Below, piece by piece: positions 7,408-48,717 of a DNA stretch of 64,000 nucleotides. Numbering within the stretch: the first letter of the stretch is position 1; each line of letters begins with the position of its first letter. This DNA comes from Sacculina carcini. Lineage: Eukaryota; Arthropoda; Thecostraca; Sacculinidae. A program made the translations under genes and the position numbers. Below the pieces are notes generated by a model, which saw nothing but the letters and a program-made list of their open reading frames with translations, was not told the origin of the DNA and searched no databases. The stretch covers positions 716,001-780,000 of the forward strand of contig OU696594.1 of NCBI GenBank assembly GCA_916048095.2. Reading direction: 5' to 3'.

Positions 7408-7820
7408 TCAACTACAACAATACCGTAGAGGAGAACGCCTTTCCCTCCCGGAACGTCTCAGCACTGGTTCTTCCACGTGGTCATTCACACCTTCATCGGA
7501 ATGATCCAAAGTGATAAACAGTCTGTCTTTGTTCATATTAGCAACGTTGGCATGCTGACCATCTTCTCCTTCTGTCCTGGGTCTTAGATCGCGCACGTGG
7601 CGCGGCACACCACCAACTTCGACAGCGTTCTCTGATACTATTCCAGTCACAAGCCCTTTCTCGTACCGTTCATTGCACCTGGCTCCCGACGGTCGCACCC
7701 ATACAGCATCACCAATTGAATACCGATATTTACCTCCTATATCTTCACTCAACTCTTGATTTGCGCTGTCAACGTCTCGAATTTTAACCTGGTACCTAAA
7801 AAGAGCATCTGCAGGAGATA
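7408..7820 (-). pseudogene. Integrase C-terminal fragment (inverted copy)
   Basis: Encodes the last ~135 residues of the pol that is complete on the plus strand at 9360-9772, differing at a few positions (for example DHSDEGVNDHVEEPVL). It includes the chromatin-binding-like C-terminal region with GDAVWVRPSGARC and GGVPRHVRDLRP. It starts abruptly at the inversion breakpoint (7820), so it is a duplicated tail and not a gene. Confidence 0.9.
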
Positions 7821-7945
7821 GCGCAAGCACAGCGCAAGCGCAAATCAAGGGTTGATCTGCAAGTCGATTTGGATTCATTTGAATTCGAATTTGATTTGGA
7901 TTCATTTGGATTATTTTGATTCGATTTGGATCATTTGGATTGATC
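7821..7945. repeat. Low-complexity filler at the inversion breakpoint
   Basis: GCGCAAGCACAGCGCAAGCGC is followed by AAATCAAGGGTTGATCTGC and then a GATTTGGATTCATTT-type repeat. TTGATCTGCAAGTCG occurs at both ends (about 7852 and 7940). AGCGCAAATCAAG also occurs at about 9413 in the right arm. It looks like templated filler plus slippage. Confidence 0.65.
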
Positions 7946-9772
7946 TGCAAGTCGCCTGAGCGCTTGAGCGAAGGGGCGAAGGCATTGGGAGTGCAAGTAA
8001 GAAGTGAGAATGGAAATATCATTTGGAGAAGAGCTAAAGAAATTCTTCCTGTGCCGTCCAGATTGAGCAGAAGAGTGGTGTTTTCATGGTGCGACCAAAT
8101 TACCGGACATTTGCCTGTTTGCGCGTATTTGAGACCGGCAGCTTCATATTTGAAACGTAGGGTCGCTGCAATAACTAATAATTGGGATGATGAGATTACT
8201 GATGAAGGTTTACGTTCAATGTTAGGGGATGTCTATCAGAGGTGGAAAAAGAACGATCCCTCGAAAGGAAGGTGGAGTGTGCTGGGCGATGAAGCGGTGG
8301 TTTGGGTGGACGCTAGTTCACTGGCAGTAGGGGTGGCTTTAGAGGTAGACGGCAGTATTGTTGAAGATTGTTGTTGGTTACGCAAGGACTGTGAATCACA
8401 TATTAACATCGCTGAGCTGGATGCGGTGCTAAAAGGCATGAATTTGGCGGCTGCATGGAAGATGGAAAGTATTCGACTAATGACAGATTCGAGATCAGTG
8501 TTTCATTGGCTGAGTGACTCACTCTCCGGAAGAGCAAGACTGCGTACCAAGGCGTCCAGCGAATTGTTAATCAGGAGACGGATCTCAACCTTTCAGACCA
8601 TAGTGCAAGAATATGCCTTGTCGGTTAGTGTTCATTGTGTGGGCTCGGCTTTTAATCGTGCAGATGCTTCGACAAAAGTGCCGCAAATGTGGTTGCGAAG
8701 AGAAGTCTGCTCGGAAGGTGGAAAAACAGCGCCACCTGCATCAGTTGCGTGTGCTGTGGGAGACGTCGAGCCTTTGAGAGAAAAGCTGCATCGCGAGACT
8801 GGTCATCCGGGCGTCAGACGCACGCTGTATTTCACCAAGCGGGCAAAACTACCGGCAACCAAGCGTCAAGTTTTGTCTGTTGTGTCCCGGTGTCAGGAGT
8901 GCCAGTCCATTAATCCTGCACCGGTTAAATGGAATCACGGAGGCCTTGGTGTAACAAAGGCATGGCAACGAGTGGGAGTTGACATCACTCATGTGAGAGG
9001 CGAACATTTTCTCACGATGATTGACCATGGCCCGTCACGCTATGCAATATGGCGGAAATTGAGATTCCAGAGTATACCGTATATCGTGCAGCAGTTGGAG
9101 GATGAATTTTTTGAGCGTGGAGCACCAAAACAGCTACTACTAGACAACGACACTGCATTTCGTAGTCAAAGATTCATGGCATTTTCTCGTCAATGGCAGA
9201 TACATTTACGGTTCAGGTGCGCGTATCAACCATCTGGTCATGGAATAGCTGAACGCTGCCACCGCACTGTAAAGTCAATAGCGGCTAAGAAGAACTGTAC
9301 AATCGCTGAGGCCGTCTATCGATACAACGTGGCGCCCAGGGACAGGCCAGAGTTAACGTTATCTCCTGCAGATGCTCTTTTTAGGTACCAGGTTAAAATT
9401 CGAGACGTTGACAGCGCAAATCAAGAGTTGAGTGAAGATATAGGAGGTAAATATCGGTATTCAATTGGTGATGCTGTATGGGTGCGACCGTCGGGAGCCA
9501 GGTGCAATGAACGGTACGAGAAAGGGCTTGTGACTGGAATAGTATCAGAGAACGCTGTCGAAGTTGGTGGTGTGCCGCGCCACGTGCGTGATCTAAGACC
9601 CAGGACAGAAGGAGAAAATGGTCAGCATGCCAACGTTGCTAATATGAACAAAGACAGACTGTTTATCACTTTGGATCATTTCGATGAAGGTTTGAATGAC
9701 CACGTGGAAGAACAAGTGCTGAGACGTTCCGGGAGGGAAAGGCCTTCTCCTCTACGGTATTGTTGCAGTTGA
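7946..9772 (+). pseudogene. LTR retrotransposon pol, 5'-truncated: RT end, RNase H, integrase
   Basis: Open frame to a TGA at 9770-9772. Numbered from an upstream ATG at 7916, the parts are: end of RT/connection (CKSPERLSEGAKALGV), RNase H with D132 (VDASS), E167 (AELD), D191 (TDSRSVFHW) and D250, then integrase with an HH-CC zinc finger (H292, H297, C326, C329) and the DDE triad D356, D410, E446 with 35 residues between the last two. The order RT-RNase H-integrase and the motifs fit Ty3/gypsy. It is a close homologue of the pol at 41792-43981. RT catalytic residues, protease and gag are missing. The start is the rearrangement breakpoint, not a real initiation site. Confidence 0.88.
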
Positions 9773-38930: not shown

Positions 38931-39768
38931 CTAGCATTAAACCCGCCCGTTGTGCGGAGCAATTCATAATATGAAATTCATATTCAATTCATAAAAAATA
39001 TAGAAAAATAAAAATGAAATAGGGTACACTCATAAAAATATTAAACAATTGAAAATTATAAGTTTAATTAACTTTATTTCGACAAAATATTTCCCCTCAG
39101 TCTGCCTTAGTCATTTTTACACCCGCCCGTCGTGCTGAATAATTTAGAACTGGAACACGATCCGTTCTGGATCTTGAAGTCATATACATTGGTTTTGTGT
39201 ATGGATTAATTGTACATGGGAAATTGAACGTTCTATTCTGCTGCTCTGTAGCTGCTCTTCGTGCGGAATAATTCAGAACTCAAACACGAAACATATTGAC
39301 GAAGTTTTTTCCCTCAACACTGCATAAATTCACACCCGTCCTTCGTGTGTAGTAATTCAGAAGTGTAACACTATCAAAACAATGAAACTTTCAGTCATCT
39401 CTATAATTCTAGATTAATGCTTCCGCTAAAACAGTATATGCATATAGTTGGCATTGCATGATATTACAACCCATATCCTTATGCAGCTTAAGCGTATGCA
39501 ACTTGAAATTAAACCAATTAAATTACACAGTAAAATTCAGTAGTTAACTTTGTTCCCAGTAGCATTTTACCAGCCCATCGTGCGGAACAATTGAGGTGTA
39601 AATATTGAGGACAATAAAGCCTTTCTATTCAGTATAGTGTAGCATTAATTAAGGTGTACGCAATAAAACCACACCATCCATGCTTGGAGCTAATATGATG
39701 CATTGTTAATTGTGAGTGGGCTTCAGTGAAATTTAATCGGTGTATATTCCTGTGTAATCGCAACAACA
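38931..39768 (-). mobile_element. Helitron-like 3' part, reversed
   Basis: Begins with the reversed CTAG end (ACTAGCATTAAACCCGCCCG) and runs through reversed 3' modules to the CGGTGTATATTCCTGTGTAATCGC segment, where the LINE tail (CAA)n begins. Confidence 0.82.
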
Positions 39769-41576
39769 ACAACAACAACAATGTATTTGTATAGCGCTCA
39801 CACAGAAACAAGCGCGAAAGAGACAACAATTAGAAACAACAGTACACGATATCAAGATGTGAGAAAAGAAGTAGAAAATTCACAGAAAGGAATTTTTTTT
39901 TAAATAATAAAGGAGATAAATAAAATGAAAATAAGTAAAAACATAAGTAATTGTAAATTAGAGTCATAGGGAAGCGTAAGGTGTAAGAGTGCGAGAAGTG
40001 GGATTAAAAGATTTAGCAAAAAGATATTTACGAAGTGAGGAGGAAAATCTACTAAAGGATGAAGAGGAAGTGATTGAGGAAGGAAGATCATTGTAGACCC
40101 GAGGCGCATAGAAATAAAATGATTTTGCGGACCAAGGTGACTCGTTGATAGCGCGAGGACAGGATAAAGGACGATGAACACGAGAATTATAGTCATTAGA
40201 AGAAACTAGAAGATCAGAAAGATAGGACGGGGAAGAGCTATTGTGCAGAATTTTATATATGAGACAACATAACCGAAAATGAATCCTAGGAATGATGGGA
40301 AGCCATTGGAACAAGAATTGAGAGGTATGGCAGCAAGGTGTAGGATGGAGCACAAAACGACAGGATTGATTAATTATTTTTTGAAGGATTTTCAGGGATT
40401 TGTTGGTAAGAATGTAGTGGAGTGAGCTGCAATAATCAAGACGAGAAAGAACAAGAGACTGTATTAATTTAATAGAAGAAGGCTGGTCTGAACAGGATCG
40501 AATAGGGTATAGACTGCGTAAAATCAAACGACGGGTGCGCGAAATAGAGACACCATTGTTTGAAAAGGACAAGTTGGAATCGAAGATAGCACCCAAGTTT
40601 CGAACAGAGGAAGCTACAGCAATTGGGAGTAATGGAGGAGAAATGCGCGGAGGGTGGAGGATAAGAAATTCAGACTTAGAAGTGTTGAGAATGAGCCAGC
40701 GAGAGGTGGTCCAGGACGTAATATCAGAGAGAATATCATTGAGAAGAGTGGCATGAGAGAAAGGACAAGGAATTATGAGTTGTATATCATCGGCATAAAT
40801 ATGGAAAGGAATGTTGTATTTACAAAGGACAGGACAGAGAGAAGACATGTAAAGATTGAAAAGAGTAGGACCCAAGATAGAACCTTGAGGGACACCAGAA
40901 ATAAGAGAAGCAGATTTTGAAACAGTTGAATTGAAGTTTACTGAAAAAGTGCGACCCGAGAGATAGGATTTGAGGAGAGACAATGCTGACGAGGATAGAC
41001 CCAGAGAAGAAAGACCATTGATGAGAATGGCATGATTGACAAGATCGAAGGCTAGAGACATATCGAGAAGAACAAGGAGAATTGATTGACGATAGGAAAA
41101 TTTAGATAAGATTTCATGAGTAACTGAAATAAGGACGGATTCCGTAGAGTGACAGGAGCGAAACCCAGATTGGAAAGGATGAAGGACCTGGAAAATAAGG
41201 GAAAAAATTGCTGATTCAAGGAGTTTTGAAGGAAAGCTGAGAAGAGATATAGGACGGTAATTAGCGCATTCAGACGGATTTAATGTAGGTTTTTTAAGGA
41301 TAGGATGGACGATGGCATGTTTATCAGATAGGAATTGGCCATGAAGAAATGATGAATTAATGAGATGTAATAGATAAGGAAAATGAGAAAATATTGAAGG
41401 GGAGATAGCTCTAAAATTAATAGGATCAGCCGGAGAGGAGGAAATTTTGAGGGAAGATATCATGGTAAGAATATCTGAAAGATGTATTTGCGAGAATGAA
41501 GTGAATTGTGGAGACACACGAGTATGTGTAACAGGGATATTGGAAGAGGGGAGTTTAGATTGAACAGATAGGACTT
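39769..41576 (-). mobile_element. 5'-truncated LINE, copy B
   Basis: Same family as copy A. The minus-strand 3' end is GCGCTATACAAATACATTG followed by (TTG)n at 39769-39781. Homology to copy A stops at about 41575, where the LTR element begins. Confidence 0.87.
39964..41575 (-). CDS. LINE reverse transcriptase, 5'-truncated, uninterrupted
   Basis: Open through the whole retained LINE. It begins around VLSVQSKLPSSN and ends TPYASL. The frame also runs on upstream into LTR-element sequence to 41748, which is accidental. In order: CANYRPISLLSFPSKLLE, DMSLAFDLVNHA with the first catalytic Asp, SGVPQGSILGP, IYADDIQL, LGAIFDSNLSFSNN, then a C-terminal domain with QKIINQSCRFVLHPTP. The endonuclease and RT fingers are missing. 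Small in-frame losses relative to copy A (SQLSP; FH before WLPI) show that the two copies changed independently. No stops, so it is fairly young. Confidence 0.85.
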
Positions 41577-41791
41577 TAACACTACATGCACACCTGGCTT
41601 CAAGAGCCAAACGTAAACGTATAAATCTACAAGCGGTATCACGCGGTAAAGTGGAAACGCTGCACAGACAAACATGCGGTAAAGTGGAAACGCCATTGTA
41701 TGACGAATGACAATAACAATGACGAATGCGTATCGACTGAGCACGCACTCACACATGCATACTCACACGCACTCACACAATAGCATGAACA

Positions 41792-44700
41792 TCAATATTG
41801 AAATAATTGACGCGGCGCAGGATTGGCCCGTAATAAACGCACAGCAGAGCGACTAGGCAAGTCATTCGGTTGTTCATTCATCCGCACCGGTTCAACAACT
41901 CTTTCAGGCTGAACTGCAGCAGGCGGAACTGTCACGAGAGCCGGACGACGTTCTTTTTCCTGCTGCTGCTGCACACCAGGCGGCACACTGACAGCCACGC
42001 GTCGATTGCACGGCCTCAGACTTCTCACGTGACGAGGCACTCCGTCGACTTCGACGCTGAGCTGAGAGGTCACACCAGTCACAGTGCCGATGTGTGACCT
42101 GGTGTGACAACTTGCACCTCGCTGCCGAACCAACACAACAACTCCAAGTTTGAACTTGCAGCGCACAGAAGCGTTGTTAACTTGAGCGTTGCCAGAATGT
42201 GGCGGCGTCGGGATTGGCCGCGACCGCACGCGATATTTATATATCTGCATGGCAGGCGCGGAACTGTCTGTGCGGCTGTCCTTTGGAGTCATGTTGTACC
42301 AATGTACAGCTTCCGATACAGAGCAGTTCGACCTAGCAGCGATTGTTTTGATGGTGCGATGGCTGCGCTCAGCGATGGCATTTCCAGTGGGCTCATATGC
42401 GCACCGAAAAATCAAATTGACACCCCATTTTTCGAGCATGCTTCTGAAAGCAGCGCTGCGAAACACAGTTGCGTTATCGGCCAGAACTTCCGCTGGTGGA
42501 CCGCGCTCATAAAAAATGTTCTCCAATTGCATGATGACATTCACACTGTCTTGCTGTCTCAGGTGACGCCACAGTGAGAATCGCGACGGGCCACAGTCGA
42601 TCACAGTGAGGTAATGGTGAAGCCCTGCGTGCGTCACGTCGATGGCCAGACGATGCCAGTTGCGCTTTACGTGCAGCTTGACTGCTGCCCACCGCACAGG
42701 AGCAGGATCAACTGACTGGCATGCATCACAATTTCTCACCACCGTTTGGGCCATCCTTCTGCTCACACACGGGTCTTTCTTCTTCGAGAAATACAGTGTT
42801 CGCCTCACACCAGGGTGACCAGAGGCCTCATGCACGGCTCGCACGACAGCGAGAGGATCATGCGGTGAAGTACACGGTGCTGTCGCTGCTGCTGCCACTG
42901 ACACGGCTGCATTAGGTTGCTTTCTCAGCCAGGCGGTGGGCACACGAGTCAGCTGGTCCGCCAGATTGCAACTTGAGCTGACGAATGCGACGTTAACGTC
43001 CAACTGGTACTCTGCCACCAGAGACGTGAGAACAGACAACCTCCTGCGAATAAGCATTTCACTGGCGGCTTTTGTTTGAAGCCTCGATTGCCCACTCAAT
43101 GCGTTGCTTATCCAGTGGAAGACTGTGCGGGAATCAGTAACTAGACGGAATTTTTTCAGCTTCCAAATAAGCGCCAGGTTCACACCTTTGACAGCAGCAT
43201 CGAGTTCCGCCATATTAATATGAGCCGCATCCTCAGTGCGCAACCAGCATCCGTCTTCAATCACTGACCCGCTGATCTCCAATACCGCACCCATGTCCAA
43301 TGAACTAGCATCGGTCCAAACAGTGGCGTCTCCATCAACCACATCCCAGCGTCCAGTTGCAGGATCAGCATCTTTAACACGGGCCAATATTTCCTCCAGC
43401 ATTTTGCGGACTTCTCCACCATCACGCAGCTTGTCATCCCAGCTTGCAGTTGCAGCATTTGCTCGACGCTTGATGTATGCTGCCGCCACACGCAGCCAGC
43501 CACACACTGGCATGTGCCCTGTCAGTTTGCCACAAACTGAAAACACGTTCCGCCGTGTGAGAACATCCGGTATATCACCAACACAGTTGTCACGGCGCCA
43601 ACGCAGATGACGACCATGGCTGTCCACTCTGACACCAAGGACACGAGCGCCGTCTCGCAGTCGCTCGGGAGCTTTGCACACGAGGCCGTATTTTTCCAGG
43701 TGTGCAACCACCTTGTCCACACCAACGACATTCGCGTTCACAAGCACATCGTCGATGTAGGAAGACGTACCCTGAAACACGGTCGGGTCCTGTTTCAACA
43801 CAGTCTCCAGTACGGCTTGCATCACCAATGGGGCGACATTGAGACCGAATCCGAGTCTAGTGAGACAAAAACGGCGGCCCTCGAAATTGACGGTTTGAAA
43901 AGGCCACAAGTCGGAGCTCACGGCGATTTGCAAGTAAGCCTTCCTCAAATCGATCAACACCGCACTGCCTCCAACACGTCTTCACAGACGAATTTTGTCG
44001 GCACAAACGTCACTGTTGGCAGTGAATGGATTTATGAAGTCATTGAGCTCTCTGAAGTCAAGGACTGGCCTGGTTTTGTGCTTATTATTTTGAACGACAG
44101 CCATTAGGGGAATTAACGCTTTCGCAGGTCCGTGCTCTCGTTCATCATATCGTTGCAGCCAGCCACGCTTGATCCAGTCCAATACTTCTCTACGGTATTC
44201 CATTCGAACACTGGGCTTCATGGCGTATTCACGAACTTTGTTTTTTAGAGCACCTGGTGGCCGTCCGTCCGCCCATTTCCACGCAGCTGTCCACTGTTTC
44301 TTGTCAGCACTGAACTTTGCTGTAAAGTCTTGTCGTTCAATGACAAGGTCGGTCAGTTTACCCGGCACTCCACCAGAAGCATCAGCCGCTCCAGCCGTGT
44401 ACTGAGTTCCTGCTGTAGCGTCACAATGCACACCAAGTCTCACATTACCCTCGCCACTGATGCACACACCACCGTAGGACGATACGCCATTCATACCCAA
44501 CACAAATTCAAAATTCAACGGTTTGAAGCTGACAACCATGGCTTCAACAAATTTTGGTGAATGAGCAGCACTTTGTAAGCATACCATTGTCCTGCCAAGA
44601 CTCCTATGCTTGGTGCCGTCTACAGTTACAATAGTGCAAACATATGGTTCCCATGAACCACAACACGACTGATGAATTATGCACTTGGAACAGCCTGAGT

Positions 44701-44818
44701 CGACGAGTACAGATTTCTCACAATCATTTACTCGCATGAGTGTCGTGGGTAACGCGTCATTGGCAAACGAGAAGACGCCGACGATCACGCGTCTTCTCGC
44801 TGTCCGTTTCCCGAACAT
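41792..44818 (-). pseudogene. pol: protease, RT, RNase H and integrase, one in-frame stop
   Basis: Entered by -1 frameshifting from gag. Protease: VLVDSGCSKC with DSG at about residues 40-42 of this frame, and FVLGMNGV. RT: RPVLDFRELNDFI, an in-frame TGA at 43982-43984, then LIDLRKAYLQI and SYIDDVLV. RNase H, numbered from 43960: D217, E252, D276, D335. Integrase: H377, H382, C411, C414 zinc finger and D441, D495, E531 (35 residues between the last two). The end is rich in Gln, Pro and Arg. Domain order and motifs fit Ty3/gypsy. It would make element DNA and insert it. The TGA sits in the RT between conserved motifs, so this copy should be inactive unless the stop is read through. Confidence 0.88.
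44768..44812 (-). promoter_or_regulatory. -1 programmed ribosomal frameshift signal (gag-pol)
   Basis: On the minus strand the heptamer G GGA AAC (44812-44806) lies in the gag frame as TCG GGA AAC. A 6-nt spacer (GGACAG) follows, then CGAGAAGACGC, a 10-nt loop and GCGTCTTCTCG, a perfect 11-bp stem (44799-44789 with 44778-44768). The -1 frame is open from here through the protease. The gag stop codon lies just past the 5' stem arm, in the loop. Confidence 0.9.
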
Positions 44819-45561
44819 TGTGCAGCAAAATGTCCTTTAACGCCACATTTAAAGCAGTAAACATTTCTCGGCTTATGACGGCTATTATAACGCGTATTTG
44901 ACTTGTGGCTTTTCTCACTCAACTGATTGCACGTTTGTGCGCATTTGAATGACTGTTCTTTGGTGGCATTGACACAGGAACAACTGCCACAATGGCGGTC
45001 ACTCGTCACTGAGGTGGAACAAGACATACCTGCAATGGCGGCCTCTTCGTCAGCCAATATTCCGCGAGCGCTCTCCACCAGCTGAGACACGGTCATTTCT
45101 GATATTCGAGCGTTGGCACGGAGTGTTCGACGCACGTAGTCGGGCAGACCGTGGACGAAAGCGCTGTTTATCGCTGCTTCCTGCAGTCCACCAGCGAGCT
45201 GAGCGAGTCGTTTTATATCCGCAAGATACGCGTCAACCGGTTCTCTAGACTGTAGCCGACGCGTCACCAGCTGATCATAAGCAGAAAAAGAATCGACCTC
45301 GAACGCCTTCACCAACGCTCGCTGAACTTGATCCATATCAAGTTTGCTTTGATCCGAAAGCTGGTCATACACTCGGTATGCATTTCCTGTGAGTCGAAGT
45401 GGGATGACGGCAGCAACAAACGAAACGTTGTACAATCTGCATATACAATGCAACTTGCTGAACCATTCAGACACGGAGCAATCATCATTGCCTCTGAACT
45501 CCGGAATAAGTTTGATGTCAAACGCCATCGCACCAGGAGCAACACTCTCAGACTTGGACAT
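44785..45561 (-). CDS. gag with CCHC zinc knuckle
   Basis: Likely start ATG 45561-45559 (MSKSESV); the frame is open further upstream into the LTR. The N-terminal capsid-like region has IPEFRGNDDCSVSEWFSKL, LRLTGNAYRVYDQLSDQSKL and LQSREPVDAYLADIKRLAQL, as in Ty3/gypsy gag. Near the C-terminus is a nucleocapsid knuckle CFKCGVKGHFAAQC (C-x2-C-x4-H-x4-C). It ends at a TGA (44785-44787) inside the predicted frameshift hairpin. Gag assembles the particle and binds RNA. About 259 residues, a normal size. No internal damage seen. Confidence 0.87.
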   Translation of the reverse strand: MSKSESVAPGAMAFDIKLIPEFRGNDDCSVSEWFSKLHCICRLYNVSFVAAVIPLRLTGNAYRVYDQLSDQSKLDMDQVQRALVKAFEVDSFSAYDQLVTRRLQSREPVDAYLADIKRLAQLAGGLQEAAINSAFVHGLPDYVRRTLRANARISEMTVSQLVESARGILADEEAAIAGMSCSTSVTSDRHCGSCSCVNATKEQSFKCAQTCNQLSEKSHKSNTRYNSRHKPRNVYCFKCGVKGHFAAQCSGNGQREDA

Positions 45562-45880
45562 TATGCCGAAATAGCTTGTAATAAACGCACAGACGCTCAA
45601 CTCGCACAGCACCGTATCTCCTCCAGCCGTCAAACCACCAACACGACTCCTCGCTCACACCGTGACACACACACACACGCACACACACAAAGCCTCACCC
45701 GCCGCAGCAACCAATCAGCAGCGAGCCGGTCACTCGCCGCCGCCACGGGCATGAACAATTCACGGCGTGTCAGTCATACTAGTACATACATACATACATA
45801 CAAACATAGTGCACAACACGAGCACAAACGCGAATCACACACACACACACACACTAACACTCCATGCCCATAACACTACA
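45562..45880 (-). repeat. 5' LTR of the gypsy-like element
   Basis: About 319 bp from TGTAGTGTTATGGGC to GCTATTTCGGCA just before the gag ATG, with AC-rich and ATAC-rich microsatellites. The inner edge is inferred: TTCGGCA ends in CA, two bases before ATG. No recognisable tRNA primer-binding site follows. Confidence 0.6.
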
Positions 45881-48717
45881 GGAAGTTACGTCGGTGTAAC
45901 GTCAAAATGACATGTTGTCAATTTGACAGCTATTATGCGCACTTGCGATTACACATGATTATACACTGATTTAATTTCACTGAAGCCCAATCACAATTAA
46001 GAATGCAACATATTAGCTCCAAGCATGGATGGTGTGGTTTTATTGGGTACAGTTTAATTAATGCTACACTATACTGAATAGAATGGCTTTATGGTCCTCA
46101 ATATTTACACATGAATTGTTCCGCCCGACGGGCGGGTAAAATACTACTGGGAACAATGTTAACTACTGAATTTTACTGTATAATTTAATTGGTTTAATTT
46201 CAAGTTGCATAAGCTTAAGTTGCATAAGGATATGGGTTGTAATATCATGCAATGCCAACTATATGAATATGCTGTTTTAGCGGACGCATAAATCTGGAAT
46301 TATAGAGATGACAGAAAGTTTCATTGTTTTGATAGTGTTACACTTCTGAATTACTACACACGAAGGATGGGTGTGAACTTGAGCAGTGTTGAGGAAAAAA
46401 CTTCGTCAATAATTAAAACAATAATTTACAAATTTCACTTTTTCTGTTGGTTGTTTTTCATCAATTTTCTTTGTGTTTGTTTCGTGTTTGAGTTCTGAAT
46501 TATTCCTCACGACGGGCAGCTTTAAATATGAGGCGGGTTGTGGAAAAACATGTTCTCTAAATTGAAACATAAATTTCACATTTAGACTTTTATATTGGCT
46601 AAACATTCCTATGGGTTTGTTTTTCTTTTTCAATTTTCACTAATTTTTTTATGAATTGAATATTAATTATATTTAATGAACTGTTCCGCACGACGGGCGG
46701 GCTTAAATGTATCTATAAAGAGTGGGTTTAAATGATAGCGAGGTATATGATATTTTGCTAGCAGTAAATATTCTAGCGATAAAAGTAGAATAGCTCTTAA
46801 GCAAATGATTTTGGAGAATGATGTGAACCTTTAAATATATTTTGCGATCTGATGATATAAGTATTAGGAATAATACGTAGCAGAATATAGATTGCATAAT
46901 ATAATATCGGCTGTAATATCAAGGGCTTTAATATCGGTGTAATCCAAAAAATAACAACTGTATGAATATGATGCATTAGTGGAAGCATTAACCGGAAATT
47001 ATGAGATAATATGATAATGGTGTACAATTATATCGCATTATGCAACAAATGTGAATTCAGCTGCCTTACAGTTTGGTTCCGATACTATATTGGCGGGTTG
47101 AGAGATAAGTATTTGTGGGCCGCGTGTTTGGGACCCCTGGGGTAGATAATCTCAGTCTTCTGATTACAAATTATGATCGCATCAGTATATTTTGTGATCA
47201 CAAACTAATAAGTTAAATCACCTCAGACTAGGCTGAGTGCGGTCAAGATTGGATGGTTGGGTTGGGTTGGGTAGGTTTGACTCAGGTTATATTGGCTTTT
47301 AATGATAGCGGAAAAAATATAAATTTTAGCAATAATATTATAGCGGTAAAAGTAAAATAGTACTTAAGCAAATGATATTGGGGAATGATGTTAAGTAATA
47401 AATATAGTTTGGAAACATTCTGATGAGAAGATTTCATCATCTTTCATTGTTTGTTTCTTGTTTGTGTTCTGAATTATACCACACGACGGGCAGATTTATA
47501 TGTCAGGCGGGTTGAGGGATAATATTTGTCCAAATAAGAACAAAAATATTCACATTTACATTTTTCTATTGGTTAAGATATTTATAGGTTACATTTTTTG
47601 GTTTTCAATTCGTATTCAATATATTTTATGGATTTGATATGAATTTTATTGTATGAATTGTTCCGCACGTCGGGCGGGTTTAAAAAAAGTGTTTTTAGTT
47701 CATTTTCTCAAATGGTTCATTTTAATATAAAAATGTTCCGCGGCCAGCAACTATAGACAATAGAACGTTCAATTTCCCCTGTATAATTAATCCATACACA
47801 AAACCAATGGATTTGACTTCAAATATGAATTTTATTGTATGAATCGTTCCGCACGAGGGGTTTAAAAAAGTGTTTCCATTTTTTAGTTCATTTTTTCAAA
47901 TGGTTCATTTAAAAAAAGGTATTTTTTTTAATAAAAAAACTCCGCGGACAGCAACTATAGACAATAGACGTTCAATTTACCCTGTAGAATTAATCCATAC
48001 ACAAAACCAATGGATTTGACTTCAAGATCCAGAACGGATCGTGTTCGAGTTCTGAATTATTCAGCACGACGGGCGGGTTTAAAAATGACTCAGGCGGACT
48101 GAGGGGAAAAATTTTGTCGAAATAAAAATAATTAAACTTATAATTTTCAATTGATTAATATTTTCATGAGTGTACCCTATTTCATTTTTATTTTTCCATA
48201 TTTTTTATGAATTGAATATGAATTTCATGTTATGAATTGTTCCGCACAACGGGCGGGTTTTAATGCTATATATATACATAAGGAAGAAATTATCTGTCTG
48301 TCTGTGTATGTATGCTTGAATATGAGGTGACATAATTGCGCTGGTTCATGGTTCGCTGGTTCAATGATCAGGGGCTTCAAACGCAAACGAAGCGATGGCT
48401 CATTTTTATGAAATAAAAATGTCCCGCGGGCAGCAATAAAACGTTCAATTTCACCGTGTAGAATGAATTCATATACAAAACTAATGTATTTGACTTCAAG
48501 AACCATAACGGATGGTGCTCGAGTTCTGAATTTTTCCTCGCGTCGGGCGGGTTTAAATATGAGGCGGGCTGAGTGAAAATATTTTGTCAAAATAAATATA
48601 AAAATAATGAAATTTAGACTTTTTAATTGATTAAGGTTTTTATGAGTTTGCCTTATTTGTTTTTAATTTGCAATATTTTTATGAATTGCTCCGCACAACG
48701 GGCGGGTTTTAATGCTA
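45881..48717 (+). mobile_element. Helitron-like unit, 3' part
   Basis: Begins inside a satellite monomer (the break made by the LTR element), then the full run of 3' modules in the same order as units 1 and 2, ending GGGCGGGTTTTAATGCTAG at 48717. Confidence 0.85.

Follow-up and report, generated by a model that had tools for sequence, protein, structure and literature searches.

Organization of the element

The window (the whole stretch of DNA analyzed, 64 kb in length) contains a copy of an LTR retrotransposon whose gag and pol genes overlap in different frames at a candidate frameshift cassette. Its features, all on the minus strand, are as follows.

45577..45880, minus: 5' LTR, 304 bp, TGT...ACA
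45565..45576, minus: 12-nt sequence AGCTATTTCGGC adjoining the LTR, probably the primer-binding site
44785..45561, minus: gag, 258 aa, with a CCHC knuckle and its stop in the hairpin loop (ORF and Pfam; ATG at 45561)
44806..44812, minus: slippery site G GGA AAC, in phase with gag (of the 111 loci with the layout, 105 have exactly GGGAAAC)
44800..44805, minus: 6-nt spacer GGACAG (length fixed by the scan; fits 111 of 118 loci)
44789..44799, minus: 5' arm of stem 1, CGAGAAGACGC (sequence, shuffles, covariation)
44779..44788, minus: 10-nt loop GTGATCGTCG, with the gag TGA at loop positions 2-4 and the likely 5' arm of stem 2
44783-44779, minus: likely 5' arm of stem 2, CGUCG, in the loop
44768..44778, minus: 3' arm of stem 1, GCGTCTTCTCG (sequence, shuffles, covariation)
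44755..44759, minus: likely 3' arm of stem 2, UGACG, 8 nt past stem 1 (supported by the families jointly, not by F1 alone)
41792..44812, minus: pol in frame -1, with a protease motif, RT, RNase H and integrase; in-frame TGA at 43984-43982
41577..41586, minus: remnant of the 3' LTR, 10 nt, followed by LINE sequence

According to the Pfam analysis, gag contains a zinc knuckle, and pol contains RT, RNase H, the integrase zinc domain and the integrase core in this order, with DUF7047 between RT and RNase H. The knuckle, the integrase core and DUF7047 scored above the curated Pfam cut-off, and several other domains below it. The protease was assigned by its DSG motif and by Pfam matches in the related proteins P0002, P0022 and P0026. 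The solved structures nearest to pol are integrases. The sequence shared with the window extends to approximately 45880 in most sister copies, and two of these (L025 and L030) have two LTRs each (312-318 bp, no mismatches, two gapped bases each) and are flanked by 5-bp target duplications. The TG...CA LTRs, the 5-bp duplications in the two sister copies and the CCHC knuckle bear out the label of LTR retrotransposon given in the initial annotation, and the order of RT, RNase H and integrase is that of Ty3/gypsy elements, as had also been proposed.

No direct-repeat LTR pair was found inside the 64-kb window, because the 3' LTR is cut to 10 nt. This truncation and the TGA in the RT frame are both defects of the window copy, which is dead and carries the frameshift signal by descent. 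The element family itself is young and recently active: among the matches listed (140, obtained with the first 278 pol residues in this genome), 64 were full-length at an identity of at least 95%, the window included, and in 43 of these 64 near copies the match is free of stops and lies in an open frame of 1006-1017 aa.

The neighborhood of the element has several further features. Since the 3' LTR of the window copy stops after 10 nt and runs straight into the LINE, the LINE ORF (39964-41748, minus) begins within the 3' sequence of the retrotransposon. The region comprising the element and the LINE sits between inverted repeat copies at 38939-39763 and 45943-48260 (458 nt, 93% complementary, and 293 nt, 94%), which also occur in direct orientation up to ~54 kb. 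The remains of a second, related pol are located at 7408-9772, with a plus-strand ORF at 7916-9772 and a minus-strand ORF at 7408-8022 that repeats the end of this second pol.

The gag-pol junction in the window copy

The minus strand carries the whole cassette at the positions reported in the initial annotation, which had left the strand unstated; the 6-nt spacer, the perfect 11-bp stem and the 10-nt loop are present exactly as it had described them. The heptamer GGGAAAC is indeed in the gag phase. The gag codons at the slip site read ...TCG GGA AAC..., GGA AAC starting eight codons before the gag stop (C-terminal end of Gag, ...QC SGNGQREDA), and frame -1 reads GGG AAA CGG and runs on as pol. 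The gag TGA (44787-44785) occupies loop positions 2-4, in agreement with the proposed position of the stop just inside the loop. The description of pol holds in part: its frame is -1 relative to gag and overlaps it at the site, but it is open only to the TGA at 43984-43982, 276 codons past the slip site, beyond which it is open again to 41792.

A hairpin of the 11/10/11 form occurs only once in the window, and none of 100 dinucleotide shuffles yielded one, even with three mismatches allowed. In addition, the strand containing the junction folds better than its own shuffles (z -2.92), with 1 of 200 shuffles equally good.

Conservation of the layout among genomic copies

The initial annotation had suggested aligning the junctions of other genomic copies and looking for compensatory changes in the stem. 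For this comparison, a 264-Mb assembly of 43 contigs was searched, which is eukaryotic judging by its tRNA genes and its LTR and non-LTR retroelements and which contains many diverged families of the element, and 118 loci were sampled, which correspond to 112 places, six having been fetched twice (L001/L009, L003/L020, L004/L011, L005/L016, L006/L010 and L008/L013). Searches supplied 38 of the loci, and 80 were picked non-randomly, for diversity, from the match lists. The loci were sorted by hand into 15 families, which are related and not independent. Pol identity to the window pol went down to 41%; in a second set of families, measured against family F7 only, it went down to 37%.

Both strands were scanned for the layout 7+6+11+10+11 (heptamer, spacer, arm, loop, arm), with up to two changes in the heptamer and at least 7 of 11 pairs, or at least 8 pairs if the heptamer had one change and at least 10 if it had two. 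Six chance matches were dropped (in L007 and L027, and on the wrong strand of L052, L053, L054 and L056). The layout was found in 111 of the 118 loci, or 105 of the 112 places, in all 15 families; these places have retained the slip site and both stem arms. The heptamer is exactly GGGAAAC in 105 of the 111 loci (99 of the 105 places); the variants are GGAAAAC (twice), GGGAAGC, GGCAAAC, GGGAAAT and GGGGAAC. As for the seven loci without the layout, L044 has a changed heptamer and extra sequence ahead of an intact stem, L054 has retained the stem with heptamer and spacing changed, L068 has a changed heptamer, L087 forms just 6 pairs, and in L058, L085 and L086 the junction was not recognised.

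Since the scan itself demanded pairing, a control free of this requirement was performed with all 112 occurrences of GGGAAAC on both strands of the sampled loci. At least 7 pairs were formed in 106 of them and at least 9 in 98, compared with 8.6% and 1.0%, respectively, of positions spaced evenly along these loci. The position of the gag stop varies among the 15 family representatives: four of them (F1, F3, F14 and F15) have it in the loop, F2 has it where the stem begins, and in the remaining ten it comes past the stem.

Some loci showed arrangements of their own. At C29:2801269, 2809286 and 2817195, three copies with equal scores follow one another on the same strand at intervals of ~8 kb and resemble a local array of elements. 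Locus L007 (C36:4567973) has an open pol frame of 2739 aa that is closed nine codons upstream of the slip site and must therefore extend downstream. Locus L017 (C36:950858-954691) contains two gag ends with the cassette within 3.8 kb, perhaps of tandem elements.

Covariation of stem 1

When each family was represented by a single locus, stem 1 had 141 paired cells out of 165 (11 pairs in 15 families). When the 3' arms were swapped between families, the mean was 121.8, and none of 100,000 trials reached 141; when the partner was slid, 92-103 of the 165 cells paired. Expressed as percentages, 85.5% of the cells pair, compared with 74.0% in shuffles (0 of 500 as high) and 56.7-62.4% for slid partners. 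Cells changed on both sides numbered 23, against 8.5 in shuffles (0 of 500), and the covariation score was 0.446, against 0.245 (0 of 500). The compensatory changes anticipated in the initial annotation are thus present: 7 of the 11 stem pairs have changes on both sides. Two weaker measures were matched by 19 and 17 of 500 shuffles. When all 69 distinct rows were used, no shuffle reached the observed percentage paired or score; the number of pairs with both-side changes and that of further pair types did not exceed the shuffles.

The pairing is not uniform along the stem. Counted from the base, pair 8 fails to form in 7 of the 15 representatives and pair 9 in 6, and RNAalifold, run unaided, predicts the lower seven pairs of stem 1. 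The perfect 11-bp stem is a trait of the family of the window, the other 14 representatives pairing at 7 to 10 of the 11 positions. Taken from these alignments, the signal looks real, and stem 1 appears to have been re-paired when mutated among related elements.

Probable pairing of the loop with the downstream sequence

The initial annotation had also raised the possibility of a pseudoknot between GTCG in the loop and CGAC downstream. A loop-downstream pairing of this kind is probable, but the proposed partner is probably wrong, the best pairing found being CGUCG with UGACG. In F1, the family of the window copy, GCGUCG in the loop can pair with UGACGC located 8 nt past stem 1; the window copy retains CGUCG/UGACG, but a T in its loop replaces the G of most family members and makes stem 2 weaker (-8.36 vs -11.78).

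Within 24 nt, 10 of the 15 representatives have a 5-7 bp helix with an energy of -10 kcal/mol or lower. The helices of F9 (AGCGCC/GGCGCU), F13 (AGCACC/GGUGCU) and F15 (GAGCGCU/AGCGCUC) are changed in sequence yet complementary. The summed stem 2 pairing energy was -178.1, compared with -158.0 for swapped families, and 56 of 20,000 trials were as low. In a null model of synonymous codons, none of 3,000 versions had a summed energy as low as that observed when the span was 24, 30 or 36 nt; for 21 nt, the observed value was below 2,994 of 3,000.

The principal competing explanation is that a simple 11-bp hairpin is the only stimulator and that the complementarity between the loop and the downstream sequence arises merely from conserved codons. 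It agrees with the absence of a significant synonymous-codon result for stem 2 in F1 alone (p 0.73-0.76), and family by family none of the tests was strongly significant. It also agrees with the five representatives of 15 in which no contiguous 5-bp helix at -10 kcal/mol or better exists within 24 nt, and with the MAFFT register, in which 72.2% of the stem 2 cells pair and no both-side changes occur; this last result is due in part to F1 and F2, whose register is two bases off. The helix found in two thirds of the representatives (10 of 15), the codon null (0 of 3,000 for 24-36 nt; 6 of 3,000 for 21 nt) and the changed but complementary helices of F13 and F15 beside that of F9 speak against the hairpin acting alone, which is accordingly considered rather unlikely. 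In the families taken together, though not in F1 by itself, the loop probably also pairs downstream as a pseudoknot, judging from complementarity and its energies.

Copies with gag and pol in one frame

Copies with gag and pol in a single frame, named in the initial annotation as a finding that would speak against a frameshift, do occur, at 7 of the 111 cassette loci; the other 104 have two frames, with a pol-frame stop at most 38 codons upstream of the slip site. The seven loci are L079-L084, which form one branch of F7, and L098, a single copy of F9. Upstream of the slip site, their pol frame runs for 248-286 codons without a stop and includes the gag knuckle. The representative of F7 (L073) has two frames. 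The branch L079-L084 has retained the heptamer and 10 of the 11 stem pairs, and its open frames are 520-646 aa in length, compared with 1005 in the main group of F7; its members may be shortened derivatives. Since seven of the 111 loci have one frame yet carry the cassette, it can persist without need. These reading frames show that the cassette is dispensable and that its presence alone is no proof of its use. The branch also offers a natural comparison, since it carries this cassette although it has no further need of a shift.

Translation of Pol from a pol-frame ATG close to the junction, by internal initiation or by reinitiation, could draw on the ATG found in F1 two codons before the slip site and on the presence of some pol-frame ATG before the next upstream stop in 7 of the 15 representatives. 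The other eight have no pol-frame ATG upstream of the slip site, and this route would not account for the conservation of the heptamer in the gag phase and of a co-varying stem at a fixed distance from it, which makes it highly improbable. Another RNA role of the stem (packaging, dimerisation or a palindrome acting at the DNA level), with the heptamer an incidental Gly-Asn coding sequence, would suit the retention of the cassette in the six one-frame loci of one branch (which may be too young for loss), but is equally improbable given that 104 of 111 loci have a pol frame that begins to be open only a short way ahead of the heptamer and that the heptamer-stem spacing is constant.

Relatives in other species

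The comparison at the DNA level covers one genome, and other species were compared as proteins only; no relatives in viral contigs were confirmed. In an alignment of 14 Gag sequences (10 from this genome and 4 of 7 relatives), Asn is invariant and Gly is present in at least 90% exactly at GGA AAC. Gly-Asn close to the C-terminal end, as GGAAAC would encode, was seen in six of the nine gag relatives read (P0030, P0032, P0034, P0035, P0036 and P0038). P0033 has Glu-Asn and P0037 Gly-Lys at this position, and P0031, a gag-pol relative from another source, is in one frame and lacks Gly-Asn. Judging by the P0031 protein, some relatives may not need the shift.

Among the pol relatives, 13 of 29 were read. 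GKR is at the expected place in P0001, P0002, P0004 and P0005, and is absent from the other nine (P0008 and eight more), most of which start further in. P0008 contains the gag-like sequence CPGNGNGG and continues from it into pol in one frame.

The sequence following the LTR

The sequence AAGCTATTTCG lies directly past the LTR end in 99 of the 118 loci. The variants listed usually begin with AGCTATTTCGGC, followed by sequence that differs between families, and in most families the majority of loci have the 12-mer in near-invariant form. This 12-nt stretch is not complementary to any tRNA 3' end and lacks the CCA complement. Self-priming elements of the Ty3/gypsy group are likewise not known to have a primer-binding site complementary to a tRNA 3' end, and membership in Ty3/gypsy is therefore not decided by its absence. 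The reverse complement of the 12-mer is identical to the first 12 nt of animal tRNA-Phe. A 12-nt stretch that fits no tRNA 3' end is more surprising than the frameshift cassette.

Several searches for the tRNA-Phe gene of the host were performed. Five sequence patterns gave no match over the genome. A further search gave 11 rows at seven places, which by eye were element sequence, and tRNA-Phe was not seen in the 95 rows of another search, which were inspected without folding. At least 51 tRNA places were recognized (63 of 15,013 candidates being scored), and none of the 20 fetched was Phe. At 46 places, the base after the 12-mer is not T; 20 of these places were fetched, and ARAGORN found no tRNA in them. 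To look for self-priming by the LTR, up to 700 nt upstream and 100 nt downstream were scanned in the 99 loci, many of whose sequences do not span a whole LTR, and the complement of the 12-mer was not found there with two or fewer mismatches. At one locus (L157, C24:7233300-7233410), two 12-mers overlap head to head and form the palindrome GCCGAAATAGCTATTTCGGC.

Proposed mechanism

Considering the observed sequence, phase, conservation and covariation, the cassette is very probably (at a probability of about 0.92) a programmed -1 frameshift signal that sets the ratio of Gag to Gag-Pol in a family of LTR retrotransposons. We infer that ribosomes would shift here, how often they would do so, and how the RNA would fold as a pseudoknot. 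According to the proposed scheme, ribosomes would meet the 11-bp stem with GGA and AAC of GGGAAAC in the P and A sites, the stem probably being closed into an H-type pseudoknot by the pairing of the loop with the downstream sequence. Some ribosomes would slip back by one base, pair anew with GGG AAA, read through the loop in a frame that lacks the gag stop and produce Gag-Pol; the remaining ones would unwind the stem and terminate at the gag stop.

A wider and distinctly doubtful proposal is that the whole lineage has kept an IBV-like pseudoknot (GGGAAAC, 6-nt spacer, 11-bp stem 1, 10-nt loop and stem 2) while its proteins diverged to ~40% identity, that one branch escaped through a fusion of gag and pol into a single frame, and that reverse transcription would be primed by the first 12 nt at the 5' end of a host RNA, which its resemblance would make tRNA-Phe, and not by a tRNA 3' end.

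The many natural compensatory variants within a single genome amount to a ready-made mutant series, which could serve the question of which base pairs, and whether the second helix, set the efficiency of frameshifting.

Comparison with known systems

The heptamer G_GGA_AAC of the cassette is also that of the betaretroviral gag-pro sites of SRV-1 and MPMV, and the 11-bp pseudoknot of the coronavirus IBV is similar to it in stem length and geometry. These three differ from the cassette described here in belonging to other genomes. In the literature searched, no paper on the element family was recognised, which by itself does not prove that none exists.

G_GGA_AAC is reported to be among the most shift-prone sites with mammalian ribosomes (PMC5009743). 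The same source cites a 2003 survey of 51 animal elements, of which 28 have pol in frame -1 and many of these show a classical heptamer (PMC5009743); in contrast to the present family, the passages on the survey give no covarying stem for animal elements (PMC5009743). A covarying 11-bp stem is described for plant sireviruses, with a 4-nt loop and pol in frame +1 (PMC5009743). In PEG10, a mammalian gene derived from a Ty3/gypsy element, GGGAAAC is located where two frames overlap and is followed by a 5-nt spacer; a downstream pseudoknot is described as necessary for the shift (PMC2800197). The likeness to PEG10, which exists at the level of this description, comprises the heptamer GGGAAAC, the short spacer and, as a probable feature of the present cassette, the downstream pseudoknot; the differences are that PEG10 is a host gene and not mobile, and that its spacer is 5 nt compared with 6 nt here. 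The mechanism and the heptamer are thus already known, and what is added by the present analysis is a new lineage with a record of covariation.
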